Below are positions 28,363 through 49,156 of a stretch of DNA of 49,156 bases, in pieces. How positions within the stretch are numbered: the first letter of the stretch is position 1; each line of letters begins with the position of its first letter. Source of the DNA: an uncultured Oscillibacter sp. GTDB taxonomy: Bacteria > Bacillota > Clostridia > Oscillospirales > Oscillospiraceae. Below the pieces are notes generated by a model. It was not told the DNA's origin, did not search any database, and saw nothing but the letters and a program-made list of their open reading frames with translations. The position numbers were made by a program, and so were the translations under genes. The stretch is taken from assembly GCA_947382875.1 (NCBI GenBank), contig CANDBG010000015.1, positions 1 to 49,156 of the forward strand, in the 5' to 3' direction.

Positions 28363-29250
28363 CTAAGGCTTTATAAATTCAAAAACGATATAATCACTTA
28401 ACTCACAGGCCTCCAAGTCCGCCTTCCAATGTTCGTCAAGCCCTCGTGAGATAAAGTCATATTGCTTATGCCGCCCTGGTTTTTTATTCAAAAGCCAATA
28501 AAGCAAGTTGCCCATGCCATATCGCTGGTAAAAGCTACATTGATAGTCTTGAATTCCGCACTGCTCTGCAATCCACTGAAAACTGCCTTTTCCCAAGACC
28601 CAAAGATGTTGGGTGCTAAACAGGAAACTTTCATAATCCTTCCCCAGCAGTTCCCGCATAACCGGGGCATCCGTGGGCGTTCCAATAAAAGCTTTTCCTC
28701 CGCTGCACAAAAGCTCCAATACTTCTTCTACAAACTGCAATGGTTCTCGAACATGCTCAATCACATCAAATGAAACCGCAACATCCACAGTTCCCCCATA
28801 GCTTTTACATGCTTCCGACATATAGGGAAATACCGAAAATCCTCGTTCCTTCATAGCCATTCGGTAGGCTTTGGAGGGTTCAATTCCGAGCGTCTCCTTC
28901 GCAACTGTGTTTACATAATCCAAGAACGCCCCAGCTCCGCAGCCAATATCTACCACCCGTTTTTTTCGAAAAATTTCCGTGCCCGTATAACGGAATTTGT
29001 CAAGGGATTCCACATCATGCATCTGATAAAAGTCTTCAACTGCAGACGTCCCTTCTAAACTCTGGCGATATTCTTCGCTTTCATAAAAGGCTTGCAGATC
29101 CTCCCGCGGCTCCTCGTGCCAAATTGTTTGGCAGCTTTTACATTGGTACATCGGAACAATGCTCTTGTAAAGATTTCCCACTCTGCCATCTCGGATAGGC
29201 CCCTGATATGCAATACCTACTTTCTCGCAGCCACATAATTTACATTTCAC
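28363..29250 (-). CDS. class I SAM-dependent methyltransferase with N-terminal zinc knuckles
   Basis: A 295-residue protein. The N-terminus has two cysteine pairs (CKLCGC near 3-8 and CKSC near 37-40), a likely zinc site, as in C-methyltransferase-like proteins of sugar pathways. The SAM site is VVDIGCGAGAFLDYVN (about 98-113), followed by VAVSFDVIEHVREPLQFVEE and the post-motif GGKAFIGTPTDAP. GTG start with AAAGGAGGAG upstream, inside the kdsC end. It is the last gene of the island, so it may modify the octulosonic acid or another sugar of the glycan. Confidence 0.85.
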   Translation of the reverse strand: MKCKLCGCEKVGIAYQGPIRDGRVGNLYKSIVPMYQCKSCQTIWHEEPREDLQAFYESEEYRQSLEGTSAVEDFYQMHDVESLDKFRYTGTEIFRKKRVVDIGCGAGAFLDYVNTVAKETLGIEPSKAYRMAMKERGFSVFPYMSEACKSYGGTVDVAVSFDVIEHVREPLQFVEEVLELLCSGGKAFIGTPTDAPVMRELLGKDYESFLFSTQHLWVLGKGSFQWIAEQCGIQDYQCSFYQRYGMGNLLYWLLNKKPGRHKQYDFISRGLDEHWKADLEACELSDYIVFEFIKP

Positions 29251-29728
29251 GTCTATCCCGCTCCTCCTTTATCAACCATTCGATAAACTCCCGAACTGCG
29301 CCGCATCCGCCCGCCAACCTGCTGACAAAAACACACCGTTTTCTTACCGCGTCTGCCGCATCCGCCGGACAGCCGCAAATACCGCAAAGGGACATCATGG
29401 ACAGGTCGTTTTCATCATCGCCCATACAGGCGGCCCATTTTAACGGTATGGCAAGCTCCCGCGACACTTTTTTTAGGCACTCGCCTTTTTCCGCGACGCC
29501 TTGATACACGTGCTGAATTCCCAGCTCCTGGCACCGTTCTTTCACAATCGCGGAACTGCGGCCTGTTATGACAACCGGGATAATTTGATGCCGCGGCAAT
29601 AGAATCCGGATGCCATAGCCGTCTTTTACATGAAAGGCTTTGAACAACTCGCCTTGCGCGGAAAGATAAATCCTTCCATTTGTCAAAGTTCCGTCTACAT
29701 CCAAAGCCAATAGACGAATTATTTGCAT
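29240..29728 (-). CDS. kdsC: KdsC-like 3-deoxy-D-manno-octulosonate-8-phosphate phosphatase
   Basis: A HAD-superfamily phosphatase without cap domain (about 162 residues), which dephosphorylates Kdo-8-P in the Kdo pathway. Motif I is LLALDVDGTLTNGRIY, motif II VVITGRSS, the lysine is in VAEKGECL, and motif IV is MGDDENDLSMM. The length and the C0 architecture match KdsC, though relatives act on N-acylneuraminate-9-P. It overlaps kdsD upstream by 10 bases and the methyltransferase downstream by 11. The ATG at 29734 is an alternative start. Confidence 0.87.
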   Translation of the reverse strand: MQIIRLLALDVDGTLTNGRIYLSAQGELFKAFHVKDGYGIRILLPRHQIIPVVITGRSSAIVKERCQELGIQHVYQGVAEKGECLKKVSRELAIPLKWAACMGDDENDLSMMSLCGICGCPADAADAVRKRCVFVSRLAGGCGAVREFIEWLIKEERDRREM

Positions 29729-30705
29729 GGCCATCTCTGCAAATCCTGGTCAATGATCCCGGCTTTCAAAATATCTTGAAGGCCAATGACGCCGACAACC
29801 TTTCCGTCCTTCAAAACCGGCATATGCGTAATCTTTTTTTCCTTAAACTTTCCAAGTGCTTCTGCTGCCATTTTTCCGGAAAAAATCGTAACAGGACTTT
29901 TTGTCATAACCTCCTGTACATAGAGTTGGTACACATTGACCCCTTTTTCGAGCTGACGGCGCAAATCGCCATCCGTGATAACGCCCGCCAGTCGATCGTT
30001 CTTCTCCATAATCAAAACAATTCCACTGCCTTTGCAAAGACCGATGACCGCGTCTTTCAAAGGTGAGCCATTATGAACCATGGAAATTTCTTCCCCTGAG
30101 GCCATCAAATCATCCACCTTCAACAGCAGCTTCTTGCCCAAAGATCCCGCCGGATGTACCTTTCCAAAATCAGACTCCTGGAATCCATAAATTCCACTTG
30201 CAACAATGGCCAACGCGTCTCCGAAGCAAAGGACAGCGGTTGTGCTGGATGTTGGAGCCAATCCCAAATAACAGGCTTCTTGAAAATTGGGGAGTATTTG
30301 CACAATATCAGAAGCATGCGCTAGAGTTGAGTTTGCGTTGCTGGTAATTCCAATCAACGCGGCGCCGATCAGTTTGATCCCCGATAAGATTCTCAGAATC
30401 TCATCGCTCTCACCGCTATGGCTGATCGCAATAACAATATCGTTCGCGGAGAGCATTCCCAAATCTCCATGCATAGCCTCGGCGGGATGCAAATAGAATG
30501 ACGGCGTACCGAGGCTGGAAAATGTCGCGGCTATTTTTCTCGCAATGTGTCCCGATTTTCCAATCCCGGTAACCGCTACTTTTCCAGTACATTCTGCAAT
30601 CTGCTTTACGATTGAAATAAATGTATGATCCAAGAGTTCACTCGTTTTAGCCAACGCGGCCCCCTCTATGTCAAAAACCCGTCTGGCTTCCGCTAATATA
30701 TCCAT
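29719..30705 (-). CDS. kdsD: KdsD-like D-arabinose-5-phosphate isomerase (KpsF/GutQ family)
   Basis: Converts ribulose-5-P to arabinose-5-P, the first step toward Kdo. The 328-residue protein has an N-terminal SIS domain (KVAVTGIGKSGHIARKIAAT, FYLHPAEAMHGDLGM, AISHSGESDEIL) and two C-terminal CBS domains (about 205-325: SMVHNGSPLKDAVI, THMPVLKDGKVVGVIGLQDI), the standard architecture. Start at 30705 with GGAAGGAAG upstream. It lies 29 bases after kdsA. Confidence 0.92.
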   Translation of the reverse strand: MDILAEARRVFDIEGAALAKTSELLDHTFISIVKQIAECTGKVAVTGIGKSGHIARKIAATFSSLGTPSFYLHPAEAMHGDLGMLSANDIVIAISHSGESDEILRILSGIKLIGAALIGITSNANSTLAHASDIVQILPNFQEACYLGLAPTSSTTAVLCFGDALAIVASGIYGFQESDFGKVHPAGSLGKKLLLKVDDLMASGEEISMVHNGSPLKDAVIGLCKGSGIVLIMEKNDRLAGVITDGDLRRQLEKGVNVYQLYVQEVMTKSPVTIFSGKMAAEALGKFKEKKITHMPVLKDGKVVGVIGLQDILKAGIIDQDLQRWPCK

Positions 30706-30734
30706 GTGTCTTCCTTCCCTTTGCGGCTGATTCG

Positions 30735-31511
30735 TCAATGTACAGCCTCATATACTTTCATCACCCGATTCAAAAGGGCTTCCAATTCATCCAACGCAAT
30801 CATATTAGGACCATCGGACAGTGCTTGAGCCGGATTTGGATGTACTTCAAAAAACAAGGCATCCGCTCCTGCCGCTACCGCCGCTTTCGCCAACGGCTCT
30901 ATATGTTCCCGTTTTCCTGCTGTAGATGTTCCGTACCTTCCCGGTTCCTGTACACTATGAGTTGCGTCCATGACAACTGGATATCCATATTTTTTCATTT
31001 CCATGATTCCAGACATATCCACCACCAGCGTGTTATATCCAAAGCACGTTCCTCGTTCACAAAGCAAAATATTGTTATTCCCGGAGTCCTCTATTTTTTT
31101 CACAACGTTTCCCATGTCCCAAGGCGCAAGAAACTGGGCCTTTTTCACGTTAATACGTTTTCCGGTTTTTGCGGCGGCAGTCAGCAAATCCGTCTGCCGG
31201 CATAAAAAAGCGGGAATCTGAATCATGTCCGCTGCTTCTGCCGCGATTTCCGCCTGCCAGGGTTCATGAATGTCCGTACAGATTTTTAAATCATAGGTTT
31301 CTTTTACCGCTTTCAGAATGCGGCATCCTTCTTCTATTCCGGGCCCGCGATAGGATTCTATGCTTGTCCGATTGGCCTTGTCAAAAGACGCCTTGAAGTA
31401 ATAATCCAGATTCAGACGCTCTGCAATTTCTTTTATTGTCCGAGCGGTTTGCATTATGCACGCTTCGGACTCGATTACACAAGGCCCCGCGATTAAAAGC
31501 ATCCGGTTCAT
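30735..31511 (-). CDS. kdsA: 3-deoxy-8-phosphooctulonate synthase
   Basis: Condenses phosphoenolpyruvate with arabinose-5-P to Kdo-8-P; 258 residues, TIM barrel. Visible family segments: IAGPCVIES, FKASFDKANRTSIESYRGPG, TDIHEPWQAEIAAEAADMIQ, IPAFLCRQTDLL, ERGTCFGYNTLVVDM and EVHPNPAQALSDGPNM. The cysteine in AGPCVIES is the residue of metal-dependent KdsA enzymes (metal-independent ones such as Escherichia coli have Asn here). The ATG at 31511 overlaps the preceding cytidylyltransferase stop as ATGA. Confidence 0.93.
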   Translation of the reverse strand: MNRMLLIAGPCVIESEACIMQTARTIKEIAERLNLDYYFKASFDKANRTSIESYRGPGIEEGCRILKAVKETYDLKICTDIHEPWQAEIAAEAADMIQIPAFLCRQTDLLTAAAKTGKRINVKKAQFLAPWDMGNVVKKIEDSGNNNILLCERGTCFGYNTLVVDMSGIMEMKKYGYPVVMDATHSVQEPGRYGTSTAGKREHIEPLAKAAVAAGADALFFEVHPNPAQALSDGPNMIALDELEALLNRVMKVYEAVH

Positions 31512-32191
31512 ACAAACGATTCCTCCAAACCTGCCAATTGGCATGCAAGTTCATAATCCTTTTTTTCATCAATATCCAAGGCTTCTATGCCGGAAACTTC
31601 TTGAATATAGGGAGCAAATCCGATTCTCCTATGGTGGTGTGTAAAGACGGCTTTCTTAAACATATAGTATCCGCTGGTTTCCACCCAAATGGGTTCCATA
31701 TCCTGCGTCCTCGGAACATCATGGATATCGTAATTGATGGGCTTTCCCTTGTACCACGCAAATGTTTGAATCCGTTCAGCCGAAAAGGCGGAGTCATTTT
31801 TGCCGTCTAAAATACGCCTCAGCGCTTCCTCGAAGGAAACTTTTCGGAGGAAAGGCGACGTTGTATGCGCTAATACATAAATGTCTGCGTCCACTTCCCC
31901 TATGAAGCTGCGGTAAATATCAAAGCCTTTCACTGTATCCTGGTCAAGAGTTTTATCTCGCTTGCGGAATATCACGCCATGCGGTAAATATTGCATCACC
32001 GCTTCGTCGCTGCAATACACATACACCTCATGAATCCCGGCCACTTGAAGCAATGTATTGCATATATGCCAGCAAAGCGGGTGTCCCGCAAGCGGAAGAA
32101 TGTTTTTGTTTGGCAATCTTTGGGAGTTTAGTTTAACCGGCACAAAGGCGGCAACTTTGGAGCTGCTTCCCACTGCGGCAGAATTTTTCAT
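31508..32191 (-). CDS. CMP-ulosonic acid synthetase-like cytidylyltransferase (NeuA/KdsB family)
   Basis: A 227-residue nucleotidyltransferase that would activate the 3-deoxy-ulosonic acid with CTP. FVPVKLNSQRLPNKNILPLA is the nucleotide-binding loop (closer to NeuA-type PVRxxSxRxPxKN than to classic KdsB), followed by HPLCWHICNTLLQV, YVYCSDEAVMQYLP, LAHTTSPFLR and a late IEALDIDEKKDYELA. With kdsA, kdsC and kdsD immediately downstream, Kdo or a close analogue is the likely substrate, but a nonulosonic acid is not excluded. The ribosome-binding site is weak; about 200 non-coding bases separate it from the DUF115 gene. Confidence 0.8.
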   Translation of the reverse strand: MKNSAAVGSSSKVAAFVPVKLNSQRLPNKNILPLAGHPLCWHICNTLLQVAGIHEVYVYCSDEAVMQYLPHGVIFRKRDKTLDQDTVKGFDIYRSFIGEVDADIYVLAHTTSPFLRKVSFEEALRRILDGKNDSAFSAERIQTFAWYKGKPINYDIHDVPRTQDMEPIWVETSGYYMFKKAVFTHHHRRIGFAPYIQEVSGIEALDIDEKKDYELACQLAGLEESFV

Positions 32192-32399: not shown

Positions 32400-33713
32400 T
32401 TAATCAAAGAGCAAATCGAAATTTATTTTTTCAAATACATTCAGCAGCGTTTTCCTGGATGCATTATAAATAGAAAATCCCCGCTCTTTTCCAACCTCCC
32501 GCGCATAGGCCAAGGATATTTTTGTATCAATACTCTCACGCTCAACCACCTCGGAATTAACGGTTGGATCTCCTCTTTCGTCCGAAAGATAATCGTTCCG
32601 GAAATGGTTGTATTTTTTGCTTGCGGAATAGCTATGATCCACGCCATACAGGTATATTTCTGAGCAGCCCAGGTAAGCGGCCAGCTGAATGCATGTATAA
32701 ATTACATCCCCGCCCACATAAGCTCCTTGTGAGAAGTCATTGCTGAAACCGGGTGGATAAGGCTCCCAAATATTTAAAACGGACAAATGGAATTTTACAA
32801 ACGCCGGATTATCCTCATCTTCAAGGCATATGTCTGGAATCAGCATATGCTTGGTTCCGCCATCTTTCAGCAAAGCAGCTTTCCACTCTTTGAAGCCGTA
32901 GCCATATTGGCATAAATAGTAATCCGGACGCCATTGTGTGGAATCATATGCCCGGACAATTCCGCTTACGCTGATGCAGATTTCATGAAATCTCGCCAGT
33001 TTATCCAGATCCTCAATCCGCAGGCTAGGTCCCGTGCCAACAATAAAGCATCGTTTTCCTTTATGAATATTTTTTAACGCTTTTATCTTCGGATTTTGGT
33101 GTTCTGGTATCCAGCCCATAAAATCATAAAGATTTACCCGTCCTTTTTCTGGCAAACCACGGGGGTCATATTGATCGCTTGTCAGATACAGCCGATTTTC
33201 CTTCACCTCGGCTAAAGAGCTGATACAGGTTGGATATTGGCGCTCCAGCTTTCTCACAAGTTGATGATCCACACCAGACTCCGGCACAATTTTCACCTTG
33301 CAATCAGGCTTGTCCGCATAATAATTCAAAAGGCATATGCTGAAAAGGTTGAGGCCGTACAAATAGGCCGTTCCCTCCCTGCGGATGCGTTTATCCGCAA
33401 TATCCAAAAGATTTTCGATTCCATCTAGGACGATTTCCTGCGGCAGTTCTCGCGCAGATAAATAAGGAATTTCATGCTGACGCAGCCGCTGTTCAATTTC
33501 TGCGGCTCCCATAAACGGTGTAACGATTACGATACATCCCCGATGATTTTCTAAAAATGTTCCAAAGCTAATGATTGGAACACCTTGATGGCTTGTTCCC
33601 TGAAGGTTCGGATTGGCATCAATAAAACCGCGTACCCCCGCACCTTTCATGAACTGGTATATTTTTTTCCCTCTGCGGCCACAACCCCAAATAAAAAAAT
33701 CAACCCTCATCAT
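32400..33713 (-). CDS. DUF115 (Maf-like) flagellin glycosyltransferase candidate with N-terminal Rossmann-like module
   Basis: About 437 residues. The N-terminal 100 residues form a Rossmann-like module (FFIWGCGRRGKKIYQFMKGA, FIDANPNLQGTSHQGVPIIS). The C-terminal domain carries the DUF115/6-hydroxymethylpterin-pyrophosphokinase-like motif GKRCFIVGTGPSLRIEDLDK, then FHEICISVSGIVRAYDSTQW, GGDVIYTCIQLAAYLGCSEI and YLYGVDHSY. Maf proteins with this domain transfer ulosonic acids to flagellin. The order here, upstream of the Kdo-type genes and in the flagellin island, fits that role. Start ATG at 33713 follows GGAGG by five bases (33710 is an alternative). Confidence 0.8.
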   Translation of the reverse strand: MMRVDFFIWGCGRRGKKIYQFMKGAGVRGFIDANPNLQGTSHQGVPIISFGTFLENHRGCIVIVTPFMGAAEIEQRLRQHEIPYLSARELPQEIVLDGIENLLDIADKRIRREGTAYLYGLNLFSICLLNYYADKPDCKVKIVPESGVDHQLVRKLERQYPTCISSLAEVKENRLYLTSDQYDPRGLPEKGRVNLYDFMGWIPEHQNPKIKALKNIHKGKRCFIVGTGPSLRIEDLDKLARFHEICISVSGIVRAYDSTQWRPDYYLCQYGYGFKEWKAALLKDGGTKHMLIPDICLEDEDNPAFVKFHLSVLNIWEPYPPGFSNDFSQGAYVGGDVIYTCIQLAAYLGCSEIYLYGVDHSYSASKKYNHFRNDYLSDERGDPTVNSEVVERESIDTKISLAYAREVGKERGFSIYNASRKTLLNVFEKINFDLLFD

Positions 33714-33725
33714 GCTTTCCTCCAA

Positions 33726-34080: not shown

Positions 34081-35889
34081 TCACCTTATGCCCGTCCATG
34101 CAATAAACATATCGTCCCTCCGGTCATATCCAAACGGCTGTACAGGGCGGGATTGGACAGAACTGCAATACTCTTTAAGCAGTGTTTCCAGTGTGGTACG
34201 GTCGGGCCAGCGCTCCCACGGCGGCGTGGCAAGCCGCCCCCAACTGGATTTTTGTTTGTCGATGATCAGGATTTTTCCCCCTGGTTTACAGACACGCGCC
34301 AACTCCCGAACCGCCGCACGAAGATTTACAGAGTGTTCAATGCATTCCACTGTGTAAACTACATCGAACGTTTTATCTTTATAGGGCAGAAATTCCATAT
34401 CCCCCATAAGTACATTTACAAACTCTGGAACATAAGAGAGAAGCTTTTCCGAAATGTCCACGCCCTCCAACGCGCAGTTCGGAAAACGCTCATGAATACG
34501 CTTCAGGATACGCCCTTTTCCGCACCCCACTTCCAAAACGCGCTCATTCCCTGACAATTCATGGAGAATCGAGAGTACTTCGCCATCCTCCGCCGCAATA
34601 TCAGCGGGGGCCTCCGGTGCAAAGTTGTAATCAAAATGAGCTTGAATCATGCACTTATAAGCGTCCAAATAAAACTTAACTGCCCATGCTGGCTCACGAT
34701 CCTCAAAATATTCCGCACCATCCCCTACACTGCCAAGAAAACCGCCGTTTTCCTCCATGTTTCGCTCGACCCAACTCATCAATCTGTCTGCCGGCGCAGG
34801 CATACCTAATTTATAGAGGCAGATCGCGATTTGGGAGCAGCCGGTGATGCACACCCAATCCACCCCTGCATACGCAGGGATAGAGCCATCCTCCCGCTGG
34901 CAGGCCAGGAGATTCTCGATTACTGTCATAACCTCGTCCGTATAGCCCATGTCGATCAGCCCATCAATCTGATAGGCCAAAAAATGGGTCAAGGTTCCCA
35001 GGGACAATCCATCAGGATCCCGCAAATACCGCTTTACGGCTTGATGGACAAGCGCTGCATTCTCATCGCTGCCAGTCATATGTGCGTACTCCAACATAGG
35101 CGGCAGCGCAAACAGCATGATCGTCTCCGGTATGACAGCGTCATCCTCATAGCTTTTGGGGAAGAGTGCGTCGTGGCTCCTCAAAACCTCGAATAAATAT
35201 TCCGCTGTTTTTTCTCGCAGCTTCGCATACTCATCTGTGATTTTGCAAATTGCGTTCAGCCCACGCAGGGCCTGCGCGGTGTCAAACAGGTACACGCGGT
35301 CAGAACTCGCGTCATTAAAGGAACCGTCCGGATTTGCCACCGAGGCTAGATAAGACGCCATCGCCAGTGCTTCATCCCGGAACCCGTACTGAAGCATAGT
35401 AGGTATAATATAGCCTGTTACTTCCGGATACTCATGCACAGAACCGCAGAATACAGAAACTCCCCCATTTTTCTGCTGGTTCTCCAAAATCCACCGGCAG
35501 GCACGCTCTACCGAGGTTGTCCCTGGGTCGGGGACCTTCTCCGCGCTGTACCGATATCGAAAAAGGAAATAGGATATATAGTTATTCAGTCCATACTCCT
35601 CCAACTGTTCCGCCATCTCCGCGCCGCGGTCACTGGCCAGAATGACGAGGGTAGGGTTCTGTTCCGCAATCTGCTTGGGCGGAAGAACCGGAATTCCTTT
35701 AACCGTATGTCCCCACAACTGAGCATTGTTGTCAATGATGCAAAAGGGCTTGATGTTTTTCTGTTCACAATACGCAATTGCAGCATGACCGATTTCCCCA
35801 GCTCCAAACAAAACGATCTTCTTATCATGCGGGAATGCTCTGTGCTCATCTACCAGGCGGTAGAGTTTTTCTTTTGATAAAGCAGACAT
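34081..35889 (-). CDS. three-domain protein: Rossmann-like module, alpha-toroid and SAM methyltransferase
   Basis: 602 residues. (1) About 18-108: Rossmann-like module (KKIVLFGAGEIGHAAIAYCE, FCIIDNNAQLWGHTVKGIPV). (2) About 120-430: alpha/alpha-toroid repeats of terpenoid-cyclase/prenyltransferase or GH88-like type, with recurring xxDGSF, QREDGSIPAYAG, NGGFLGS segments. (3) About 451-602: SAM methyltransferase (VLEVGCGKGRILKRI, ALEGVDISEKL, FDVVYTVECIEHS, GGKILIIDKQ). Probably makes or modifies a glycan component; the toroid may bind or cleave a sugar. ATG has GGGAGAAAG upstream. It is the first gene of a block separated by a 355-base gap from DUF115. Confidence 0.75.
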   Translation of the reverse strand: MSALSKEKLYRLVDEHRAFPHDKKIVLFGAGEIGHAAIAYCEQKNIKPFCIIDNNAQLWGHTVKGIPVLPPKQIAEQNPTLVILASDRGAEMAEQLEEYGLNNYISYFLFRYRYSAEKVPDPGTTSVERACRWILENQQKNGGVSVFCGSVHEYPEVTGYIIPTMLQYGFRDEALAMASYLASVANPDGSFNDASSDRVYLFDTAQALRGLNAICKITDEYAKLREKTAEYLFEVLRSHDALFPKSYEDDAVIPETIMLFALPPMLEYAHMTGSDENAALVHQAVKRYLRDPDGLSLGTLTHFLAYQIDGLIDMGYTDEVMTVIENLLACQREDGSIPAYAGVDWVCITGCSQIAICLYKLGMPAPADRLMSWVERNMEENGGFLGSVGDGAEYFEDREPAWAVKFYLDAYKCMIQAHFDYNFAPEAPADIAAEDGEVLSILHELSGNERVLEVGCGKGRILKRIHERFPNCALEGVDISEKLLSYVPEFVNVLMGDMEFLPYKDKTFDVVYTVECIEHSVNLRAAVRELARVCKPGGKILIIDKQKSSWGRLATPPWERWPDRTTLETLLKEYCSSVQSRPVQPFGYDRRDDMFIAWTGIR

Positions 35890-38165: not shown

Positions 38166-38184
38166 TGCTGCTCCCTCCATCGCG

Positions 38185-41306: not shown

Positions 41307-42028
41307 GCGCCCTGCCCCTTTCGGTTTTCCTTTTCACTGAAAAGCGGATACAATGCTGTTGCGATGGACAAATCTTCCGGGTATGTTACTTTAATGCAGA
41401 ACCGGTCGCCCTTCACCATGGCAACCTGCACGCCAAGCCGCAAAACCAATTCGCTGTCCTCGTATACTTCCCGCTCTTGGGAGGTATTCCGGTAGTTCTC
41501 ATGTGCCCGCCGCAGGAGGCAATATCGGAATGTCTGAGGGCCTTGCTGGACAAACAGCTTTTCTTTTTGCAGGGTTTGGTTGGCGATAAAGCCGTCCTCG
41601 CTGGCAGTAATCGCGTCTGTTGCATTTACTACCGTAATCACGCCGTCGTACGTTTCCATCAGTTCATAATGCCGGTTGATGGTTTCCTGCGAAAGGAACG
41701 GGCAAACTGCCGTCATGATTATCACCGTATCCTCCGGCTTGGCTGGAAGGCTGCAAAGCCCGCTGTATACGGAATCAAACCGCTTTTCCCCGGCCTTTGC
41801 CACGTACTTCAGCTTGGAAATCCCGTACTCGTTTCCCCACGCCCAGACCCGGGGAATGTATTCTTCCAGCGTCACTACACAGATTTCGTCAATATGTACA
41901 TTGCATTCTGCCGTCCGCATGGAATACGCCAGCATCGGCATTCCCGTCAGTTCCACAAACTGCTTCGGCAGGTTTCCAGAGTTGAACCGAACTCCATATC
42001 CTCCCGCCAGTATCACCGCGTAATTCAT
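41303..42028 (-). CDS. IspD/TarI-like cytidylyltransferase
   Basis: 241 residues, GT-A-type nucleotidyltransferase. VILAGGYGVRFNSGNLPKQF is the CTP-binding loop, LTGMPMLAYSMRT follows. The usual HDAVRPF of IspD is MTAVCPF here, and the late metal/CTP part reads VKVT-like CIKVTYPEDLSIA. The changed motif argues against the MEP enzyme of isoprenoid synthesis and for a glycan role, e.g. activation of a polyol or sugar phosphate as in TarI. It lies between an FkbM methyltransferase and an SDR. Confidence 0.8.
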   Translation of the reverse strand: MNYAVILAGGYGVRFNSGNLPKQFVELTGMPMLAYSMRTAECNVHIDEICVVTLEEYIPRVWAWGNEYGISKLKYVAKAGEKRFDSVYSGLCSLPAKPEDTVIIMTAVCPFLSQETINRHYELMETYDGVITVVNATDAITASEDGFIANQTLQKEKLFVQQGPQTFRYCLLRRAHENYRNTSQEREVYEDSELVLRLGVQVAMVKGDRFCIKVTYPEDLSIATALYPLFSEKENRKGQGA

Positions 42029-42053: not shown

Positions 42054-42908
42054 TTATGGCATCACCGCGTATAAAACCAATTCGCACATCAAACAAGTCG
42101 AATGATGCTGTATATACAGCTGGTATTCTGGAACCAATTCTTTAATATATAAAGGAATTTCCGTCATATCTTCTGGCTTGTGATAGATGCAGACTGCCAG
42201 TTTCAGTTTGTTCCGCAAAATGATTCTCCTCGTACCCTTCAGCGATTCAAGTTCCGAGCCCTCTGCGTCCATTCTTATCATCGTAACCCAATCGTCTGGA
42301 TTGACAAATTCATCAATAGTCGCCACAGATATGGTAAGACCGCCTTCTTCCTGGAAAGTGGGTGAGTCGTTACCTTTCGCCTTAAAATGGAGGTTTTTTC
42401 GTTCACTCCATGTTCCGAAATAGAAAATTTCCACCCCTTTATGATTCCATTTTTCAGCATTTTCACGACACTCTTGATAATTTTGCAGATCTGGTTCAAA
42501 GGCATATACCTTCTTTACACACTTGCAATATTTCAAGAGCTGAATGGATGTTTCTAGACCATAACATCCTGCATCAGTGAATACTCCGTCCTCTTCATAT
42601 TTCATAAAAGGAGGTGCAAAATATTGTCCAGGGTCATCTTCCTCAACAATCCCGCTCATATTAAAAATCAGATTATCCGGATATCTTCTGTCTTTCAAAA
42701 TATGCATGGTTTCATGAAAGCATTGCGTTGTGCTAATCACGACTGTCAAATCCTTGCGGCACAACAATTCTTCCGGGCTTATGCAGAGACATCCCAAATA
42801 TCCGTCTTTCTGTTTGCTTTTTGTTTGACTGTAAAACCGGAATAATTGTTCGTAATTTTTCCAATATGGCAGAATAGCTTTTCCATATTTTTCAGCCTCG
42901 TAAAGCAC
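42054..42908 (-). CDS. FkbM-family methyltransferase (main frame of a frameshifted gene)
   Basis: The 284-residue main frame starts at a GTG within the gene and contains a partial Rossmann-like module (about 1-80: YEAEKYGKAILPYWKNYEQL, GYLGCLCISPEELL) and the FkbM domain (VFTDAGCYGLETSIQLLKYC, YAFEPDLQNYQECRENAEKW, TMIRMDAEGSELESLKGTRR). The module's usual FGAG motif has become YEAE. Sequence upstream (to 43120) codes for the missing N-terminus but with two one-base shifts, so the working protein, if any, is shorter than its relatives. It would O-methylate a sugar. Confidence 0.8.
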   Translation of the reverse strand: MLYEAEKYGKAILPYWKNYEQLFRFYSQTKSKQKDGYLGCLCISPEELLCRKDLTVVISTTQCFHETMHILKDRRYPDNLIFNMSGIVEEDDPGQYFAPPFMKYEEDGVFTDAGCYGLETSIQLLKYCKCVKKVYAFEPDLQNYQECRENAEKWNHKGVEIFYFGTWSERKNLHFKAKGNDSPTFQEEGGLTISVATIDEFVNPDDWVTMIRMDAEGSELESLKGTRRIILRNKLKLAVCIYHKPEDMTEIPLYIKELVPEYQLYIQHHSTCLMCELVLYAVMP

Positions 42909-43120: not shown

Positions 43121-43141
43121 TCTCCTCTTATTTCCAGCCTG

Positions 43142-43225: not shown

Positions 43226-43238
43226 TTGTTTTATGTCA

Positions 43239-43430
43239 TTACAGCGTTGGGTTTATTGCTCTGAAGCGTCTCCAATTCCGAACCTTCATATCCATCTTAA
43301 TCATAGTAACACGCTCTTCTGGGGGAACCACCTCATCTTGGTCTTTCGGCATGGGATATCTTAAATCGGCGGGAGTTTTTCCTGTGTAGCGCGGGATGTC
43401 AGGTAAATACGTGGTTACGATAGAGTCAAT
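43239..43430 (-). pseudogene. scrap of a second FkbM methyltransferase
   Basis: Minus strand YIDSIVTTYLPDIPRYTGKT...EERVTMIKMDM. VTMIKMD and, after restoring one lost G, MEGSELETLQSNKP give the FkbM core motif. It is cut on one side by the IS110 relic and on the other by the PHP tail. Confidence 0.6.
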
Positions 43431-43444
43431 ATATCGCCTTTCTC

Positions 43445-43970: not shown

Positions 43971-44122
43971 GGCCCGGTCAGGCATAGTGGAATCTTCTCC
44001 GCATCCCTTTCAGACTGGCACTTCAGCGGCGGTCTCTTTGTTGTGCCCTTTTACATCGCCTCATCTTTCTTTGTCTTCCTGCAAATTTACCCTTGACTTT
44101 TTATTTGCAGACTTTACTAAAA

Positions 44123-44932
44123 TCAAATTAGCCAATCCAGCGCGAGTTCCCGGGCTGCAAGAGGATGATCCGGTTTGTGTTTCTCGCCGTGGAAATCGCT
44201 GCCGCCAGTAACCCGCAGGTCATATTTTTTGGCGAGTTTCAAATATCCCGCCGTCTCTTCCAGCGTGTGAATTGGGTAGTAGCATTCAATCGCGTCCAGG
44301 CCATAGCCTTTCAAGCGGCAAACTAATTTTTCCAGGCTCTCGCCGTTCAGTACAATCTGGTATGGATGCGCCAGTGACACCTTGCCGCCTGCCGCTTTGA
44401 TCCGCTCTACACATTCCTGCGCACTGGGCTTCATGCCTTTCTCCATCTCCTGGAAATCCGGCGTATCCAGATATTTGTCAAACGCCTCTTTCCGCGTCGC
44501 CACCATTCCATGCCGCAGCATCACCATTGCAAAATGCGGACGCCCAATGGAGCCGTCCGCCGCTTCCGCGTCCACTTCGTCCAGCGGAACTTCCAGGCCC
44601 TTTGTTCGTAGGAAATCTCGAATACGATACTTGCGGTCATTCCGCCCGCCTTTCAGGCTGTTCAACCAATCCTGCAAAGCTGCGGCAGAAAAACCGTAAC
44701 CCAAAATGTGCAAATTCAGGTAATCGTCCGCACTCAGTTCCACACCTTGGATTACGCGCAGACCAAGCGCCTTCCCCGCCGCTTTCGCTTCCGCCACGCC
44801 ATCTATGTTGTCGTGGTCTGTCAAGGCCCATACTTCCGCGCCGCGCTTTTTTATCAGTTCCGCCAGCTCTGCCGGGGAATATTGCCCGTCAGATGCGGTG
44901 CTGTGCGTATGCAAATCCGCTTTGCAAACCAT
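44123..44932 (-). CDS. PHP-domain phosphoesterase
   Basis: 269 residues. Metal-binding motifs of the PHP superfamily: ADLHTHSTASDGQYSPAELA, WALTDHDNIDGVAEAKAAGK, VIQGVELSADDYLNLHILGY, VSLAHPYQIVLNG and TGGSDFHGEKHKPDHPL. Members are nucleoside-bisphosphate or polynucleotide phosphatases of the YciV/RNase AM group. Intact, with GGAGG five bases before the ATG. Next to APS kinase it could remove 3'-phosphoadenosine-5'-phosphate left by sulfation; that is inference from the known 3',5'-bisphosphate activity of relatives. Confidence 0.88.
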   Translation of the reverse strand: MVCKADLHTHSTASDGQYSPAELAELIKKRGAEVWALTDHDNIDGVAEAKAAGKALGLRVIQGVELSADDYLNLHILGYGFSAAALQDWLNSLKGGRNDRKYRIRDFLRTKGLEVPLDEVDAEAADGSIGRPHFAMVMLRHGMVATRKEAFDKYLDTPDFQEMEKGMKPSAQECVERIKAAGGKVSLAHPYQIVLNGESLEKLVCRLKGYGLDAIECYYPIHTLEETAGYLKLAKKYDLRVTGGSDFHGEKHKPDHPLAARELALDWLI

Positions 44933-44941
44933 GTGCGCCTC

Positions 44942-45478
44942 CTACTCCAACCCAAAAAACCGGAACAGCCGCTCTGCGATTTCCTCCGGCGTTTCCGCAC
45001 CGTCGTTCTGGACGACAATACTGGAGTGGCCCGGCTCGTCCCACGGAAGGTCTACGCCCACTACATTTTTTGCTCTGCTCGAATACAGCTTCTTCTGATC
45101 CCGTTTATACAGCGTCTCATGAGCTACTTTCAGGTAGATTTCCCGATAATTTTCAATGTTTTCCCGATTCCACTCCCGAACCTCGGTGTACATCGCAATG
45201 CTGCATATTACAATATCGAAGCCCGCTTCCGCCATGTCCTTACAGCCTTGAAACAGTAAAAACGCGCCCGCTTTGCGAGCTTCCGTTGTGTAATGGTCTT
45301 CCAACAAGACCATACCGTCTGCGGTACTGTGACCCGCCTGCGTACGGGCGCGGTCGCCGTCAATGAGGATGGCGTCTGGGTGTTTTTCTTTCAACCGCCG
45401 GTAAAACAGTCCGCCGACGGTCGTCTTTCCCGCACCAGCCAATCCGGTGAAGAAATAGACCGTTCCTTTTTTACTCAT
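44942..45478 (-). CDS. adenylyl-sulfate kinase (CysC-like)
   Basis: 178 residues, APS-kinase fold: P-loop FFTGLAGAGKTTVGGLFYRR, the substrate segment ILIDGDRARTQAG, ARKAGAFLLFQGCKDMAEAG, REIYLKVAHETLYKRD and KNVVGVDLPWDEP. Would make the sulfate donor PAPS from APS, although no APS-forming sulfurylase is in view; close relatives in glycan loci may act on other nucleotides. ATG at 45478 follows AAGGAA. It lies 18 bases after the sulfotransferase-like gene. Confidence 0.83.
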   Translation of the reverse strand: MSKKGTVYFFTGLAGAGKTTVGGLFYRRLKEKHPDAILIDGDRARTQAGHSTADGMVLLEDHYTTEARKAGAFLLFQGCKDMAEAGFDIVICSIAMYTEVREWNRENIENYREIYLKVAHETLYKRDQKKLYSSRAKNVVGVDLPWDEPGHSSIVVQNDGAETPEEIAERLFRFFGLE

Positions 45479-45496
45479 CTCTTTTGTTCCTTCCAC

Positions 45497-47503
45497 TTAA
45501 TGGTACAGCGGCTGCTCCAAAAGCGCTGGATCCAGCTGCAGCTTCCGCATAAAATGCAGCGGCTGGCTCCGCTTGTTCACAAACCGCAGGCTGTTCATAA
45601 GAAGCTTCGCGTTGGCAAACCGGCTTTCGTCAAACTGCTTCATTTGTTGTTCCAGCAATTGCAGTTGGATGTCTTTTTCCGTTTCGATGTCAACGCTCTC
45701 GCCATTTACAGATACCTTCGCTTTTTCAAATACCTTTGTCCAGGTTTCCCGAATATAGTGGTTTACGGTTGTAAAGCCCGCAATCAGTTCTTTTACCTTC
45801 TCCTCGTCTACCGGCGCTCCGTCATAATATTGGAGGTCATATCCATAAAATTTGTAGGCGTCCCGGAGAAAATATTCGATAAAATACCGTTCTGAATCGT
45901 TGACATAATCATCATAGGTCTTATAAATCGGCGCAGGATCGAAGCCCTTCGTTTCCGGGTGCGGGTCACGTTTACCGTTCTCTGAGCAGTAGGTCATACT
46001 CTCCGTATAGGGCAAGTCCAGAAACGCCGCCAATGCCGTAAACGTCGCCTTTCCGTTTAACTTGCCATCCTCAAAACGAACCAGAACACTGTCCTTATAC
46101 AGCCGGTCATCCGGGTCGATCATAAAGCTGCGGTTGAACACACGTTCCGAAACCGCGTCGCTAACCACAGTTGTGCTGTCCGCATTGTTGTTATTATCCT
46201 CCAACGCGCTCCCGTACATAAATTTCACCGTCGCGCCGTGGCTGGTGGTGAAGCGGCGCATGGGCGTAAACGTTTTGATGTACTTAAAATTTCGAAAAAT
46301 AGCAGATTTCCGAATTTCCTCGTAGTTTGCCGCATGTAATACCGTCTTTTTTGTCTTTTCCTCCACCGACAAGGAATACACGATGTTGGAGAAGTGCGGC
46401 TGGAAAAATACCGCTGGAACAATCCGGGACGTTGGATCTAAACCCGCTGTCGCCATATCGTTTTGCAGGAAAAATGCTACCAGATAATCCTTATCCGTCC
46501 GGCCCTTCATCCGGTACAATTCCTCCACAAGGCGGGGATTTTTCCACGGTTCAAAATTCTCCATCGCCTCTTTCAGTGTCTGGGCGGTTTCGATTCCTTT
46601 CCGCAGGTCGCTCACAATTTCGTTTGCGTTCGACATCATAATGGAGGGAAACGCCAGCAAATTGGGATGGGAATCAAAAATTTCATTAAAAAAGTCGCCG
46701 CCATTATGCGTAGAGAGCTGTGTATGCCAGATCATACGGTTGATTTCTCGGATGTGCAGCGGCTGCAAAGTATATTGATTGTAATCAATTCCATACCGCG
46801 CCTTGAAATCAATGGGATATTGCGCTTCCTCATTTTCGATCAGAAAAACCAGCTTTTCATCCTCCAGCAGCGGACGCATGTTCAGACACTGCAAATATGT
46901 ACAAAACGTTTTCCAGTCGGAATAGTGAAGATAGACGTGATTCTCCTTAGCCACGTCCTCGCTTTTCCGTACATTGTCGTTCAAATATTCCAGTTCATAC
47001 TGGCTGTAAACGTCATGAGCTAAGATAGGATTTTCCAAATCCTTGAAATAATTCTGGCTGACGACGGGGTTTCCAAAGTTTACAAAATCCCCAAACTGCT
47101 CCTCTTCCGGAAAAAACGGAACATAGCCGTTATGATCGTCATAGGGGAAGAAGCAGAAGGGCAAGTCCTCGAAAGGAATAAAATCCTTCCGAAAGAAATA
47201 GGGGTATTTTTTCAGCAGCTTGCAGTTTCGTTCATAGCGGCCCTGCAAGAGCTTGATATTCGGTTCATAGAAAACCTTAATCATCAGGGGCAGAATGTCC
47301 TCTCGAAAATGCCCCTGGTTGAACAATTCAATAAACGTCGTATAAGAGACCTGGTAATTCCCACCGTATTGCAGATTGTATGCCGCCGCTTCCAGCAGCT
47401 CGGCGGGCTCGCCTCCCTGGGCGATCACAATTTGATACGCTTTTATCGCGTCCTCTGTGCCGCCCATAGAGGCCAGCTTCCGGGCAATTTCGATCGTACT
47501 CAT
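45497..47503 (-). CDS. large sulfotransferase-like protein next to flagellin
   Basis: 668 residues. The N-terminal helical region (about 1-75: IEIARKLASMGGTEDAIKAY, TPR-like) is followed by a domain I cannot name (FPYDDHNGYVPFFPEEEQFG, FVNFGNPVVSQNYFKDLEN). From about 240 there are sulfotransferase-like features: DSHPNLLAFPSIMMSN, KTVLHAANYEEIRKSAIFRN, FKYIKTFTPMRRFTTSH and a late VLVRFEDGKLNGKATFTALA-AFLDLPY. The classic PAPS loop (RSGTT-type) is not evident. The neighbouring APS kinase supports sulfation, but this call stays tentative. Start at 47503 has AAAGGA upstream. Confidence 0.55.
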   Translation of the reverse strand: MSTIEIARKLASMGGTEDAIKAYQIVIAQGGEPAELLEAAAYNLQYGGNYQVSYTTFIELFNQGHFREDILPLMIKVFYEPNIKLLQGRYERNCKLLKKYPYFFRKDFIPFEDLPFCFFPYDDHNGYVPFFPEEEQFGDFVNFGNPVVSQNYFKDLENPILAHDVYSQYELEYLNDNVRKSEDVAKENHVYLHYSDWKTFCTYLQCLNMRPLLEDEKLVFLIENEEAQYPIDFKARYGIDYNQYTLQPLHIREINRMIWHTQLSTHNGGDFFNEIFDSHPNLLAFPSIMMSNANEIVSDLRKGIETAQTLKEAMENFEPWKNPRLVEELYRMKGRTDKDYLVAFFLQNDMATAGLDPTSRIVPAVFFQPHFSNIVYSLSVEEKTKKTVLHAANYEEIRKSAIFRNFKYIKTFTPMRRFTTSHGATVKFMYGSALEDNNNNADSTTVVSDAVSERVFNRSFMIDPDDRLYKDSVLVRFEDGKLNGKATFTALAAFLDLPYTESMTYCSENGKRDPHPETKGFDPAPIYKTYDDYVNDSERYFIEYFLRDAYKFYGYDLQYYDGAPVDEEKVKELIAGFTTVNHYIRETWTKVFEKAKVSVNGESVDIETEKDIQLQLLEQQMKQFDESRFANAKLLMNSLRFVNKRSQPLHFMRKLQLDPALLEQPLYH

Positions 47504-47525
47504 TGGCATCCTTTCTGCATGAAAA

Positions 47526-47551
47526 AGGGGGCGGGCTTCAGCCCGCCCCCT
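47526..47551 (-). terminator. flagellin terminator
   Basis: Stem GGGGGCGGGC / GCCCGCCCCC with a 4-base loop and T5 on the minus strand, between the flagellin stop and the next gene. Strong, so the island downstream is transcribed by read-through or from its own promoter. Confidence 0.88.
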
Positions 47552-47591
47552 CTCTTTGCTATTGCTATAATTGAGTGTTTGCTTTGGAGAA

Positions 47592-49156
47592 TTAGCCGAG
47601 CAGCTGCAACACGCCCTGAGGCACTGCATTGGCCTGAGCCAGCATTGCCTGTGCGGACTGCACGAGGATGTTGTTCTTCGTGTAGCTCATCATTTCCTCG
47701 GCGATGTCGGTGTCGCGGATGGTGGACTCGGCGTCCTGGATGTTCTCCGCCATGACGCTCAGGTTGTTGGCGGTGTGCTCCAGACGGTTCTGTGTCGCGC
47801 CCAGGTCGCCGCGGACAGCAGACACATAGTTGATCGCGTTCTTGATCACGTCGATCGCGTCCTTTGCGGCGTCAGCTGTCTTGATGTTGATGGCCCTGAT
47901 GGATTGACCCTCGGCTGTGATCTTACCGTTATCATCCAGCTTCATGCCCATGGCCTTCACATGCATATCACCGATGGAAACCTTCAGACGGTTGAAATCG
48001 TCGCTGGTGTCGCCGATCTGGAGCGTCAAGGACTTCTTGCCGCTGCCAGACTTAACGTTATCAATGCTGGTAAGACCCCAGTTGACCAGCTTATTGATCT
48101 TATCCTCGCTGTCCAGGAACTCGTCAGCATCTTCATCGTATTTACCGTTGTTATAATCCCATTTCTCTTGCAGCGAAATGGTCGTGCCGTTAGTGCCAAC
48201 GCCCACGGTGAATGCCTTGTTACCATGGGCGGCTACGCTGATGCGGCGGGCCAACTCGGCAACGGCTTTGCTGTCGGACGCATTGAACTTTCCATTGGAA
48301 TCAAGCAAATCCTTGATGCCAATCGTATTTTTCGCTGTCGTGTTCGACTCGGTGTCGAAGGTGATATTCTCTCCGCCAATGGTCAGAACACCGGCGTCTC
48401 CGCTTCCAAGGGCAGCGAGCTTTGCAGCAATCTCACTCGCGCTGATGTGAACGTGGGCCAGCTGCGTCCCCTTCTTCGCCACGCCGTTCGTGATATTCTG
48501 CGTATTGCAGTTGTAGCTCACAACACCAGAAGCGTGGGCGCCTTTGTTCGCAGAGCCGTTGACAGCCATGCTGAGGCCCTTGCTTCCGGTAATTGTGACT
48601 TTCATGTTGGCGTCGAAATCCTTAAACGACTTCGAGGCTTTCATTTCAAACTTCAAAACGCCGCTGGCGGTCACGCTCACATGGAACGATGCCTTGGTTG
48701 ACACGGCGCCTGCCTTACCAGTAAGGCTTATGCTGGCCTTTGCGGTTCCACCCGCGGCGATTGTGCCGCCTGCTGTGGCAATACCCACAAGCGTGAGATT
48801 TTGGTGAGTAAAGATGTCACCCGACTGGAATGCCTTAGTTGCCGTAAACTTGACCGTAATCGTTGCGTTGCCAACATTAACCTTAAGCGCGACCGAGGCG
48901 CCCTGAGCAATCGACTTGCTCGCCCTTACGCCATGGAGCGCCTGCTTCAGGTCAATTTCAAACTTCGCCTGCTGGCTGGCAACACCGGCCTTATGCCACT
49001 GGCCGCAGGTGGCCGGGGAGGCAGAGGTGCCGGTAGTAAGGGTAAAAGTCTCCGTCTTCTCAATCGTCACATCCTGAGAGACAACAGGATCATCCATCAG
49101 GGAGCCGTCGAGGAGCTTGATGCCGTTGAAGTTGGCGGAATCGGCGATACGGTCGA
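47592..49156 (-). CDS. flagellin (5' end outside window)
   Basis: About 521 residues of the filament protein are present; the first hundred or so lie beyond the window edge. [20 protein letters not shown] at the edge is the end of the conserved N-terminal D1 region. The C-terminal D1/D0 is complete ([80 protein letters not shown] and QLLG). The middle is a large Ala/Ser/Thr/Lys/Gly-rich surface region with many Ser/Thr positions for glycans, and two cysteines (PATCGQW and YNCNTQ), unusual for flagellin. Confidence 0.97.

Follow-up and report, generated by a model that had tools for sequence, protein, structure and literature searches.

Described systems

Kdo is commonly taken as a marker of Gram-negative lipopolysaccharide (LPS), and its established enzymology runs from KdsD, which makes arabinose-5-phosphate, through KdsA, which uses PEP, and KdsC, which dephosphorylates, to a synthetase yielding CMP-Kdo, a donor that E. 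coli already makes. KpsC/KpsS and WbbB are retaining beta-Kdo transferases using CMP-Kdo. Adducts of Neu5Ac and of Kdo have been reported on flagellin in E. coli, and in the available part of that report Maf of Clostridium botulinum and Geobacillus kaustophilus places Kdo from CMP-Kdo on flagellin Ser/Thr (PMC11339370), as may happen here; this bears out the remark, in an earlier sequence-only reading of this DNA, that Maf enzymes accept Kdo in engineered settings. The same text gives a legionaminic acid derivative as the native donor of the C. botulinum enzyme and predicts one for G. kaustophilus; their Kdo comes from the E. coli host (PMC11339370), whereas our island carries its own Kdo genes. 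These Maf enzymes are distant relatives of the DUF115 domain described below. Clostridial flagellar hypervariable regions, or flagellin glycosylation islands, resemble our locus in that genes for sugar pathways and transferases, variable in kind, adjoin flagellin and CMP-ulosonate pathways are among them, but in the available portion of the source these are Pse and Leg pathways with Maf, whereas our locus has a Kdo-type pathway to an 8-carbon sugar and a DUF115 protein that is non-canonical, and the terms Kdo and octulosonic occur zero times in that portion (PMC13317340).

The flagellin island

The window, the whole stretch of 49,156 nucleotides analysed, is the entire contig C15 of an Oscillospiraceae genome bin that is 87.5% complete, and as the contig edge falls inside the gene, the flagellin N-terminus is missing. 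In a bin check against the genus genomes, both contig ends found their best match seen in G169, which matched the RlmD-like protein at 80% and the protein at 45497-47629 at 83%. The island reads as follows, from flagellin outwards:

47592..49154, minus strand: flagellin (FliC), N-terminus cut by the contig end (Flagellin_C PF00700, 95 bits, E 3.2e-27)
47526..47551 (stem), minus strand: GC-rich 11-bp hairpin, then T5, a putative terminator or attenuator (sequence reading)
45497..47503, minus strand: p710, conserved protein without Pfam family (ORF opens at 47629)
44942..45496, minus strand: adenylylsulfate-kinase-like protein (PF01583 62.5 bits; NF004041 130.9, cut-off 127)
44123..44932, minus strand: PHP-domain protein (PF02811)
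42054..42908, minus strand: FkbM-type methyltransferase with accessory Rossmann domain (PF05050; Rossmann HMM 62 bits)
41303..42028, minus strand: IspD-like cytidylyltransferase (PF01128 120 bits; under NCBIfam IspD cut-offs)
40257..41306, minus strand: NAD-dependent epimerase/dehydratase, SDR (PF01370)
38185..40224, minus strand: HAD-containing glycan protein (PF00702; Rossmann HMM 14 bits only)
37065..38234, minus strand: GT4 glycosyltransferase (PF00534, PF13692)
35903..37036, minus strand: GT2 glycosyltransferase with C-terminal accessory Rossmann domain (PF00535; Rossmann HMM 82 bits, itself a seed)
34081..35889, minus strand: N-terminal Rossmann domain, family-less central region, C-terminal SAM methyltransferase (PF08241, PF13649; Rossmann HMM 90 bits, itself a seed)
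32400..33725, minus strand: Rossmann plus DUF115/GT42-like protein, candidate Kdo transferase (PF01973 58 bits, cut-off 34.6)
31508..32191, minus strand: CMP-ulosonate, presumably CMP-Kdo, synthetase (PF02348 59 bits, cut-off 22.6)
30735..31511, minus strand: KdsA, Kdo-8-phosphate synthase (TIGR01362 391 bits, cut-off 314, equivalog)
29719..30738, minus strand: KdsD, arabinose-5-phosphate isomerase (TIGR00393 290 bits, cut-off 204)
29240..29734, minus strand: KdsC, Kdo-8-phosphate phosphatase (TIGR01670 141 bits, cut-off 107)
28363..29250, minus strand: SAM methyltransferase, final member of the overlapping genes (PF13489)

All the genes that the sequence-only reading had named are thus present, in one direction behind flagellin, itself the single PF00700 match in the bin. 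The glycan genes are contiguous with flagellin on the same strand, apart from two interruptions. The hairpin lies past the stop codon of flagellin and ahead of the gene that follows (a consensus scan gave it a plus-strand reading only, the minus-strand one being read from the sequence), so island and flagellin are not necessarily one transcript; and the PHP gene, together with a 1.2-kb gap ahead of the FkbM gene, breaks up the run of glycan genes.

The flagellin-proximal genes belong to a type of island found in the genus, in which they are common to 11 of 86 genomes and variable genes lie farther out. Homologues of p710, whose start is conserved among them at 47503, occur in these 11 genomes (the source genome counted). 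Wherever the contig extends far enough, flagellin is the immediate neighbour ahead of p710 (10 of 10 copies: that of the window plus nine more, of which one is broken), whilst two further copies stop at a contig edge. No family was returned by a Pfam search with p710, and a match to Sulfotransfer_3 in one of seven members (E 0.18) was not significant. Behind p710, G206 carries a CMP-sugar synthetase, a 2-epimerase-type protein and a CBS-nucleotidyltransferase protein, G230 a CMP-sugar synthetase and a DUF115-like protein, and G169 a GHMP kinase with SIS and nucleotidyltransferase-HAD proteins. Several genes of our island recur in such settings: the PHP protein in six flagellin islands of the genus (57-84% identity), the SDR in that of G151 (63%), the HAD protein in the islands of G151 (63.5%) and G230 (55%) and in the G245 flagellin island (48%), and the GT4 enzyme in the G178 island (61%). 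The protein at 34081-35889 found no match at E<=1e-30 among the other 85 genus genomes.

Among the genus genomes, the Kdo-type synthetase was found in the source genome alone (1/86), and third-position GC is 0.44-0.55 from GT4 through the island end against 0.63-0.70 in four left-half genes. Acquisition of the Kdo cassette into the variable part of a flagellin island would be the best explanation. The final SAM methyltransferase shares 11 bases with the KdsC gene and was the best match of zero ORFs across 80 cassette-type loci (described below); O-methylation of the glycan is a possible role.

Kdo enzymes and the synthetase

KdsA, KdsD and KdsC were correctly named by the earlier reading, as all three score above curated cut-offs; the model is an equivalog for KdsA (top PDB match 1fwn, E 2e-87) and a subfamily model for KdsD and KdsC, which fall short of the equivalog cut-offs of PRK10892 and PRK09484. 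The claim of a complete Kdo-type pathway held for these enzymes and for the presence of a CMP-ulosonate synthetase, but the latter is not of KdsB type: it falls under every KdsB model cut-off, is NeuA/PseF-like, scores under all PseF cut-offs too, and its top PDB match is a NeuA. Since it is not KdsB, CMP-Kdo is its presumed product only. The island thus has KdsD, KdsA and KdsC in common with the LPS pathway (KdsD-KdsA-KdsC-KdsB-WaaA) and lacks its KdsB-type synthetase, whilst neither WaaA nor LpxC, sought as evidence of Kdo2-lipid A assembly, was found in the 87.5%-complete bin, in keeping with the claim that there is no lipid A gene.

We compared 80 cassette-type loci with flanks of up to 10 kb, 32 of Firmicute type and 48 of Bacteroidales type. 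A synthetase with other substrates could make the route yield an isomer or derivative of Kdo or some such ulosonic acid, as might be suspected from the missed KdsB and PseF cut-offs and from a large group of Bacteroidales relatives, in which KdsA is present in only 3/48 loci; yet KdsA here clears its equivalog cut-off by a wide margin and has the genes for KdsD and KdsC next to it, and KdsA, in the same locus as the synthetase, and KdsD are each found in 29/32 Firmicute-type loci, which makes such a product very improbable.

The candidate Kdo transferase

The DUF115 protein (441 aa) has a Rossmann domain fused in front. Its family profile matches 1ro8, a sialyltransferase, at E 9e-11, 2p2v at E 3e-7 and 5mu5 at E 7e-10, where we take the first two to be GT42 entries, CstII to be a GT42 sialyltransferase and 5mu5 to be a Maf. 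It would thus resemble GT42 sialyltransferases and Maf about equally, although sialyltransferase Pfam models, as a test of GT42-likeness, gave no match at E<=0.01 to members of A3. With the GT42 enzymes it shares the catalytic core, by profile match, and would share a CMP-ulosonate donor, but theirs is a sialic acid, whilst its gene neighbours would make Kdo. KpsC/KpsS and WbbB transfer Kdo from CMP-Kdo, as the DUF115 protein would, and a relative of PF05159, presumably the KpsC/KpsS family, lies immediately ahead of the synthetase in loci L040, L044 and L052, but no sequence match between transferases of these types and DUF115 appeared in the searches made.

That the DUF115 protein acts as a Maf, placing Kdo directly on flagellin Ser/Thr whilst the other transferases extend the glycan or act elsewhere, fits its catalytic domain (PF01973 above cut-off, profile match to 5mu5) and its place in a group (support 89) that also holds the L040 and L057 proteins and that of the flagellin-linked L061, all three from genomes encoding flagellin. 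Two Maf enzymes, moreover, accept CMP-Kdo in the available text of PMC11339370. The match to sialyltransferases, which have sugar acceptors, is equally good, however, and the family alignment extends to the last residues of the protein with nothing after the catalytic domain, which leaves no room for the C-terminal flagellin-binding TPR domain that the available text describes for Maf-1 (PMC13317340). Relatives also occur in 40/80 cassette-type loci, Alistipes included, and the family is present in loci that have no flagellin in reach, 24/48 of Bacteroidales type among them. We consider a Maf role unlikely and read the protein as a probable Kdo transferase rather than a canonical Maf, of which none was identified among the island proteins; of the "Maf-like" label the DUF115 domain and a distant relationship survive, the canonical architecture does not.

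By HMM, a PglD_N-like Rossmann domain is fused to four island enzymes, and weakly to a fifth. Of the 80 loci, the two known to be flagellin-linked both have it, as do 5/78 of the remainder, and a Wzx homologue accompanies 0/7 Rossmann-bearing loci versus 13/25 other Firmicute-type loci. The domain does not mark flagellin islands in general: among 12 more loci of the genus with flagellin or p710, two have it, and the p710 islands in G165, G197 and G198 lack it.

The cassette in other genomes

Related cassettes occur in many Firmicutes, which contradicts the idea that Kdo genes are foreign to this group, and are mostly distant from flagellin and often adjoin a flippase. No flagellin lay within the flanks (<=10 kb) of the 80 loci. 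An exported capsule or wall polysaccharide, with flippase and polymerase elsewhere in the genome and flagellin nearby by chance, would suit this commoner setting, as 13/32 Firmicute-type loci hold a Wzx homologue within the flanks (e.g. Pseudoflavonifractor capillosus) and a search of 30 carrier genomes gave no match to flagellin in 13. Against it, the island lacks a recognisable flippase, polymerase or ABC exporter, as the sequence-only reading had said (no transporter family among Pfam matches of its 17 proteins at E<=0.001, no Wzx profile match at E<=10), and some of its genes are shared with flagellin islands elsewhere in the genus. As the bin falls short of completeness and the contig breaks off within flagellin, export genes may still lie farther out. 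The cassette also stands behind flagellin, on the same contig and strand, in two Lachnospiraceae genomes (at 14 kb in G253 and 22 kb in G245), which strengthens the flagellin-island reading and leaves the exported polysaccharide quite unlikely. When the class was sampled evenly, 1/13 other carriers was flagellin-linked, an Acetatifactor genome counted before. The Hungatella locus L044 holds a relative of a protein just behind flagellin in G253 and G245; flagellin was not found on its cassette contig.

A proposed flagellin glycan

Our preferred reading, to which we give a probability of roughly 60%, is an Oscillospiraceae flagellin-glycosylation island with an acquired CMP-Kdo cassette leading to a native Kdo-containing flagellin glycan. 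Going by family scores, KdsD would supply arabinose-5-phosphate, KdsA would join it to PEP, KdsC would strip the phosphate and the NeuA-like synthetase would yield CMP-Kdo. In the cytoplasm, the Rossmann-DUF115 transferase would then add Kdo either to a glycan that other transferases of the island had started on flagellin, or directly to Ser/Thr, the former being at least as likely. Methylation, possibly along with sulfate or phosphate, would finish the glycan, and the modified flagellin would leave through the flagellar export apparatus, which would make flippase and polymerase unnecessary. The earlier claim that the glycan is built on flagellin rather than exported is favoured by the CMP-Kdo route, the island's want of export genes, its genus-type link to flagellin and the recurrence in two genomes, with direct Ser/Thr attachment reduced to just one option. 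More tentatively, and at less than even odds, native flagellin Kdo without LPS may arise via a GT42-like DUF115 family of Kdo transferases with a second role, in Firmicutes and Alistipes, in polysaccharides for export. The PglD_N-like Rossmann domain, fused to this transferase and to several unrelated enzymes of Kdo-type flagellin islands, would be a possible adaptor guiding the enzymes of the flagellin glycan to the substrate.

The flagella of a gut bacterium without detected LPS genes may thus carry Kdo naturally. If true, native Kdo-flagellin in gut Firmicutes would put Kdo on a host-sensed protein and would be the natural counterpart of a flagellin reaction that we found reported in engineered E. 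coli only. The DUF115/GT42-like family is nominated as Kdo transferases, and with one cassette in two settings, exported polysaccharide and flagellin, the donor and acceptor specificity of its transferases would be open to comparison.

Kdo pathway genes behind flagellin

The window is an entire contig, C15. Minus-strand genes continue from flagellin, whose N-terminus is missing where the contig end cuts it, down to 28363, and the glycan and Kds genes that the sequence-only reading had placed behind flagellin in one direction are all present there. In order from flagellin the island holds:

45497-47503, minus: p710, the first island gene
44942-45496, minus: APSK, an APS-kinase-like protein
minus: PHP protein, then a 1.2-kb gap
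42054-42908, minus: FkbM methyltransferase, with the Rossmann domain described below
minus: IspD-like protein
minus: SDR
minus: HAD protein, matching the Rossmann domain weakly
minus: GT4
35903-37036, minus: GT2, Rossmann domain at aa 281-373
34081-35889, minus: Rossmann/methyltransferase protein, Rossmann domain at aa 19-112
32400-33725, minus: DUF115 protein, Rossmann domain at aa 4-94
minus: CMP-ulosonate synthetase
minus: KdsA
minus: KdsD
minus: KdsC
minus: methyltransferase

Overlaps of 4 bases join KdsA to the synthetase and KdsD to KdsA, KdsC overlaps KdsD by 16 bases and the last methyltransferase overlaps KdsC by 11, with gaps of 355 bases ahead of the DUF115 gene and 208 bases ahead of the synthetase. 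A perfect GC-rich hairpin with T5 at 47526-47551, between flagellin and p710, reads as a putative terminator or attenuator. In a Pfam scan of the island the two minus-strand ORFs of the gap at 43239-44096 gave no match; the short ORFs on both strands of this stretch presumably resemble a degraded IS110-type transposase. At the inner island edge, the stretch 25300-28300 is low in GC and poor in clear genes; it includes a TrkA_N piece of 183 aa (26354-26905) and may be an insertion scar. We set aside a binning or assembly mix-up, as genome G169 was closest at both contig ends among the genomes seen and genus genes adjoin the island.

The proposed KdsD, KdsA, KdsC and CMP-ulosonate synthetase were borne out by curated models: KdsA scored above its equivalog cut-off (best solved relative 1fwn, E 2e-87) and KdsD and KdsC above their subfamily cut-offs, while the synthetase is NeuA-like (best PDB match a NeuA, E 1e-14), fell far under the cut-off of all KdsB models and, judged by its sequence, is not a KdsB. 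LpxC and WaaA were not found by model search in the bin holding the window (2.77 Mb, 113 contigs, 87.5% complete), with models that gave matches in Gram-negative control genomes, which agrees with the earlier claim that lipid A genes are lacking in the island; use of the Kdo in LPS was set aside. No LPS or export genes were present in what was searched.

The cassette in other genomes

We scanned 84,980 species genomes for relatives of the synthetase and kept the best 80 of 136, counting per locus from six-frame ORFs, many of the loci being under 20 kb; viral contigs held no relative. Thirty-two loci were of Firmicute type (L040-L068, L081, L104 and L116, of which L049, L054 and L068 are labelled Bacteroidales, Muribaculaceae and Coriobacteriia), and among these best 80 of 136 KdsA was found in 29/32, KdsD in 29/32 and KdsC in 19/32 of them. 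Among genomes closer to the window the synthetase occurs in 1/86 genus genomes (the window genome only) and 14/391 class genomes, and KdsA above its cut-off in 4/150 genomes of the family, the latter two counts including the window genome.

None of the 80 loci (best 80 of 136) carried flagellin within its flanks (≤10 kb) and 13 of the 32 Firmicute-type loci had a Wzx homologue in flanks of up to 10 kb; taken alone, these flanks therefore favour Kdo made for exported polysaccharides of the capsule or wall. They also suggested a cassette that is never flagellin-linked, which whole-genome flagellin positions overturned. Leaving out L049 and L054, flagellin was found in 17 of the 30 carrier genomes searched (no match in 13/30), and in two of them the cassette lies on the contig and strand that also carry flagellin:

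Acetatifactor sp. HAN001 (Lachnospiraceae): flagellin 66880-68346; DUF115 79520; synthetase 82424; then KdsA, KdsD, KdsC; second DUF115 85353
Blautia-labelled MAG: flagellin 939138-940565; PF05159 protein; synthetase 916279; then KdsA, KdsD and GT2

A single 132-aa ORF on the opposite strand lies between flagellin and cassette in the former. In the latter a 29-kb same-strand ORF run that includes the listed genes stands behind flagellin, its terminal HAD protein 48% identical to that of the window, and on our reading flagellar structural genes probably occupy the other side. In 11 other flagellin-bearing genomes, weak flagellin matches (G241:C125, G254:C117) aside, the cassette is on a different contig or more than 1 Mb off (L067); L063 has both on one contig ~99 kb apart, and the cassette contigs of L040, L042 and L060 are too short to show linkage either way. 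An even class sample gave a flagellin match in 5 of 13 other carriers, with one flagellin-linked, the Acetatifactor genome again. The Hungatella locus L044, with no flagellin match on its cassette's contig, has a relative (52% and 37% identity) of a protein found close behind flagellin in the two flagellin-linked genomes.

In a KdsA, synthetase and KdsD tree of a subset of loci the three flagellin-linked cassettes did not group, and with support of 19-63 around the window the tree therefore shows neither a single nor a multiple origin. L049 and L054 are Lachnospiraceae-type cassettes in records labelled Bacteroidales and Muribaculaceae, possibly binning errors; L054 groups with L052, a flagellin-linked Lachnospiraceae locus, with support of 100.

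DUF115 and other candidate Kdo transferases

The DUF115 family occurs in 16/32 Firmicute-type loci and, as in the window, is the ORF directly ahead of the synthetase in 10 of these 16. A profile of 35 DUF115 proteins against the PDB matched a sialyltransferase (1ro8, E 9e-11), 5mu5, which we take to be a Maf (E 7e-10), and 2p2v (E 3e-7); singly, 29/35 match PF01973 and 0/35 match sialyltransferase Pfam models at E≤0.01. The window protein lacks the C-terminal domain of a canonical Maf, and that identity was set aside. In a tree of a subset (the G230 protein entered twice) it grouped with proteins of L040 and L057 and both of L061, the second flagellin-linked Lachnospiraceae locus, with support of 89 and apart from the protein of its congener G230; the window DUF115 gene was therefore probably acquired together with the cassette.

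Loci lacking DUF115 often have another transferase-like protein in the ~3 kb upstream: L044 and L052 (by similarity also L054) have one of PF05159, and L055, L062 and L116 one of PF07388, with L053 just below the cut-off. The upstream proteins tested in L041, L050 and L059 matched no family and that of L043 is a flippase; the scan left out L042 and L051, and upstream sequence is short or absent in L049, L060 and L064. Such unrelated candidates in one neighbourhood would fit the role of CMP-Kdo transferase. On one short contig (L040:226-3952) a DUF115 protein, a PF05159 protein and a further cytidylyltransferase (PF02348, 185 bits) precede the cassette, several candidate Kdo transferases thus being able to occur together. 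Among the 48 Bacteroidales-type loci, mostly Alistipes (L069-L119, e.g. L078, L087, L115), a synthetase of the same kind is paired with a DUF115/GT42-like protein in 24, usually with no KdsA linked to it; in these non-flagellar loci the pair may form a module for ulosonate transfer.

A Rossmann domain fused to island enzymes

Unrelated enzymes of the island share a fused domain of ~95 aa that is close to PglD_N/CoA_binding. An HMM seeded with three window copies was iterated over a chosen set (flagellin islands, n = 8; other cassette loci, n = 20), and found the domain in 8/8 vs 1/20 (29/162 vs 5/342 ORFs), where 6/8 islands came from the window's genus and the sole match of G206 was weak (14.5 bits). 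Across the unselected 80 loci it was present in both known flagellin-linked loci (L052, L061) vs 5/78 others (L040, L044, L054, L057 and, weakly at 14 bits, L060), several on short contigs. Flagellin was present in 6/6 carrier genomes with the domain in the locus vs 11/24 without (Fisher 0.021; L049 and L054 left out), and no Wzx homologue was found in the seven domain-bearing loci (flanks up to 10 kb). Twelve further genus flagellin/p710 loci (13 stretches) had the domain in two (G155, G175), some islands being clearly without it. The unselected counts therefore make it a fairly good separator of the two settings of the Kdo cassette and no general mark of flagellin islands.

We propose that the cassette enzymes would make CMP-Kdo, from which the DUF115 protein would move Kdo in the cytoplasm to a flagellin-bound glycan, our preferred acceptor, or to flagellin itself. 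We put the probability of a native Kdo-containing flagellin glycan from this island at roughly 60%; the fuller proposal, native Kdo on flagellin without LPS via a GT42-like DUF115 family, with the Rossmann domain perhaps an adaptor, is tentative. Both were rated slightly lower because the unselected Rossmann counts are weaker than those of the chosen set.

The earlier statement that Maf enzymes can accept Kdo in an engineered setting agrees with a study in which Mafs of two Firmicutes accepted CMP-Kdo, and flagellin mass in E. coli showed 220-Da steps with the one Maf studied there (PMC11339370). A Neisseria sialyltransferase can reportedly add Kdo to a glycolipid sugar (PMC8092323). In the available parts of other sources, clostridial flagellar hypervariable regions are described with pseudaminate or legionaminate and a count of zero for Kdo/octulosonic terms (PMC13317340), octulosonic acid stands only in a reference title of a bacterial O-glycosylation review (PMC12645811), and an older survey has Kdo2-lipid A enzymes in 0/7 Gram-positive genomes (PMC3087551). 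Among the matches listed, none showed Kdo as a native part of flagellin or as a sugar of Firmicutes; this coverage, which mostly excludes subscription journals, is no proof of absence.

Sister islands in the genus

Homologues of p710 occur in 11/86 genus genomes (12 copies), directly behind flagellin in all ten copies whose contig extends on the flagellin side, among them a G169 copy disrupted by stops; those of G230 and G203 stop at the contig edge. The adjoining APS-kinase-like gene makes a sulfotransferase reading of p710 tempting, which we set aside: it belongs to no Pfam family, Sulfotransfer_3 matched 1/7 members at E 0.18, and a PDB profile search returned haemoglobins only (E 1.2). p710 is a candidate for the first sugar-to-protein step and may start the flagellin glycan.

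Third-position GC is 0.57-0.70 in flagellin, p710, APSK, PHP, IspD-like, SDR and HAD genes, 0.40 in FkbM and 0.44-0.55 from GT4 through the last methyltransferase; four left-half genes have 0.63-0.70. Measured in 2-kb windows, GC drops from 0.53-0.60 over the first 25 kb to 0.45-0.50 at 25.5-38 kb. This composition agrees with acquisition of the Kdo block.

Alike-looking proteins lie in the p710 islands of G198, G165 and G197 (L156:11445-13751, L130:12501-14810, L155:2370-4670), the one scanned (G198) combining a PPDK_N with a PEP-utilizer domain. Close to the G165 protein lie a methyltransferase and an APS-kinase-like gene, a set that may resemble the pathway for phosphoramidate in the Campylobacter capsule.

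Past p710, gene content varies between genus islands. G151 has an SDR and a HAD protein 63% and 63.5% identical to those of the window. The G169 flagellin island (L147:4898-8794) encodes a GHMP kinase, a SIS protein and a nucleotidyltransferase-HAD fusion, a set as in the synthesis of GDP-heptose, another sugar usually tied to Gram-negative envelopes. G206 encodes a CMP-sugar synthetase, a UDP-GlcNAc-2-epimerase-type protein and a CBS-nucleotidyltransferase, which we take to be as in legionaminate synthesis, with a weak DUF115 piece (23 bits) and no NeuB identified in the island. In G230 a CMP-sugar synthetase adjoins a 402-aa DUF115-like protein (118 bits to the family HMM; PF01973 27 bits, under the cut-off). 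From the CMP-sugar genes of G206 and G230, the variable part of the island already carries CMP-ulosonate genes in some species of the genus, and it is this part that the Kdo cassette takes here.
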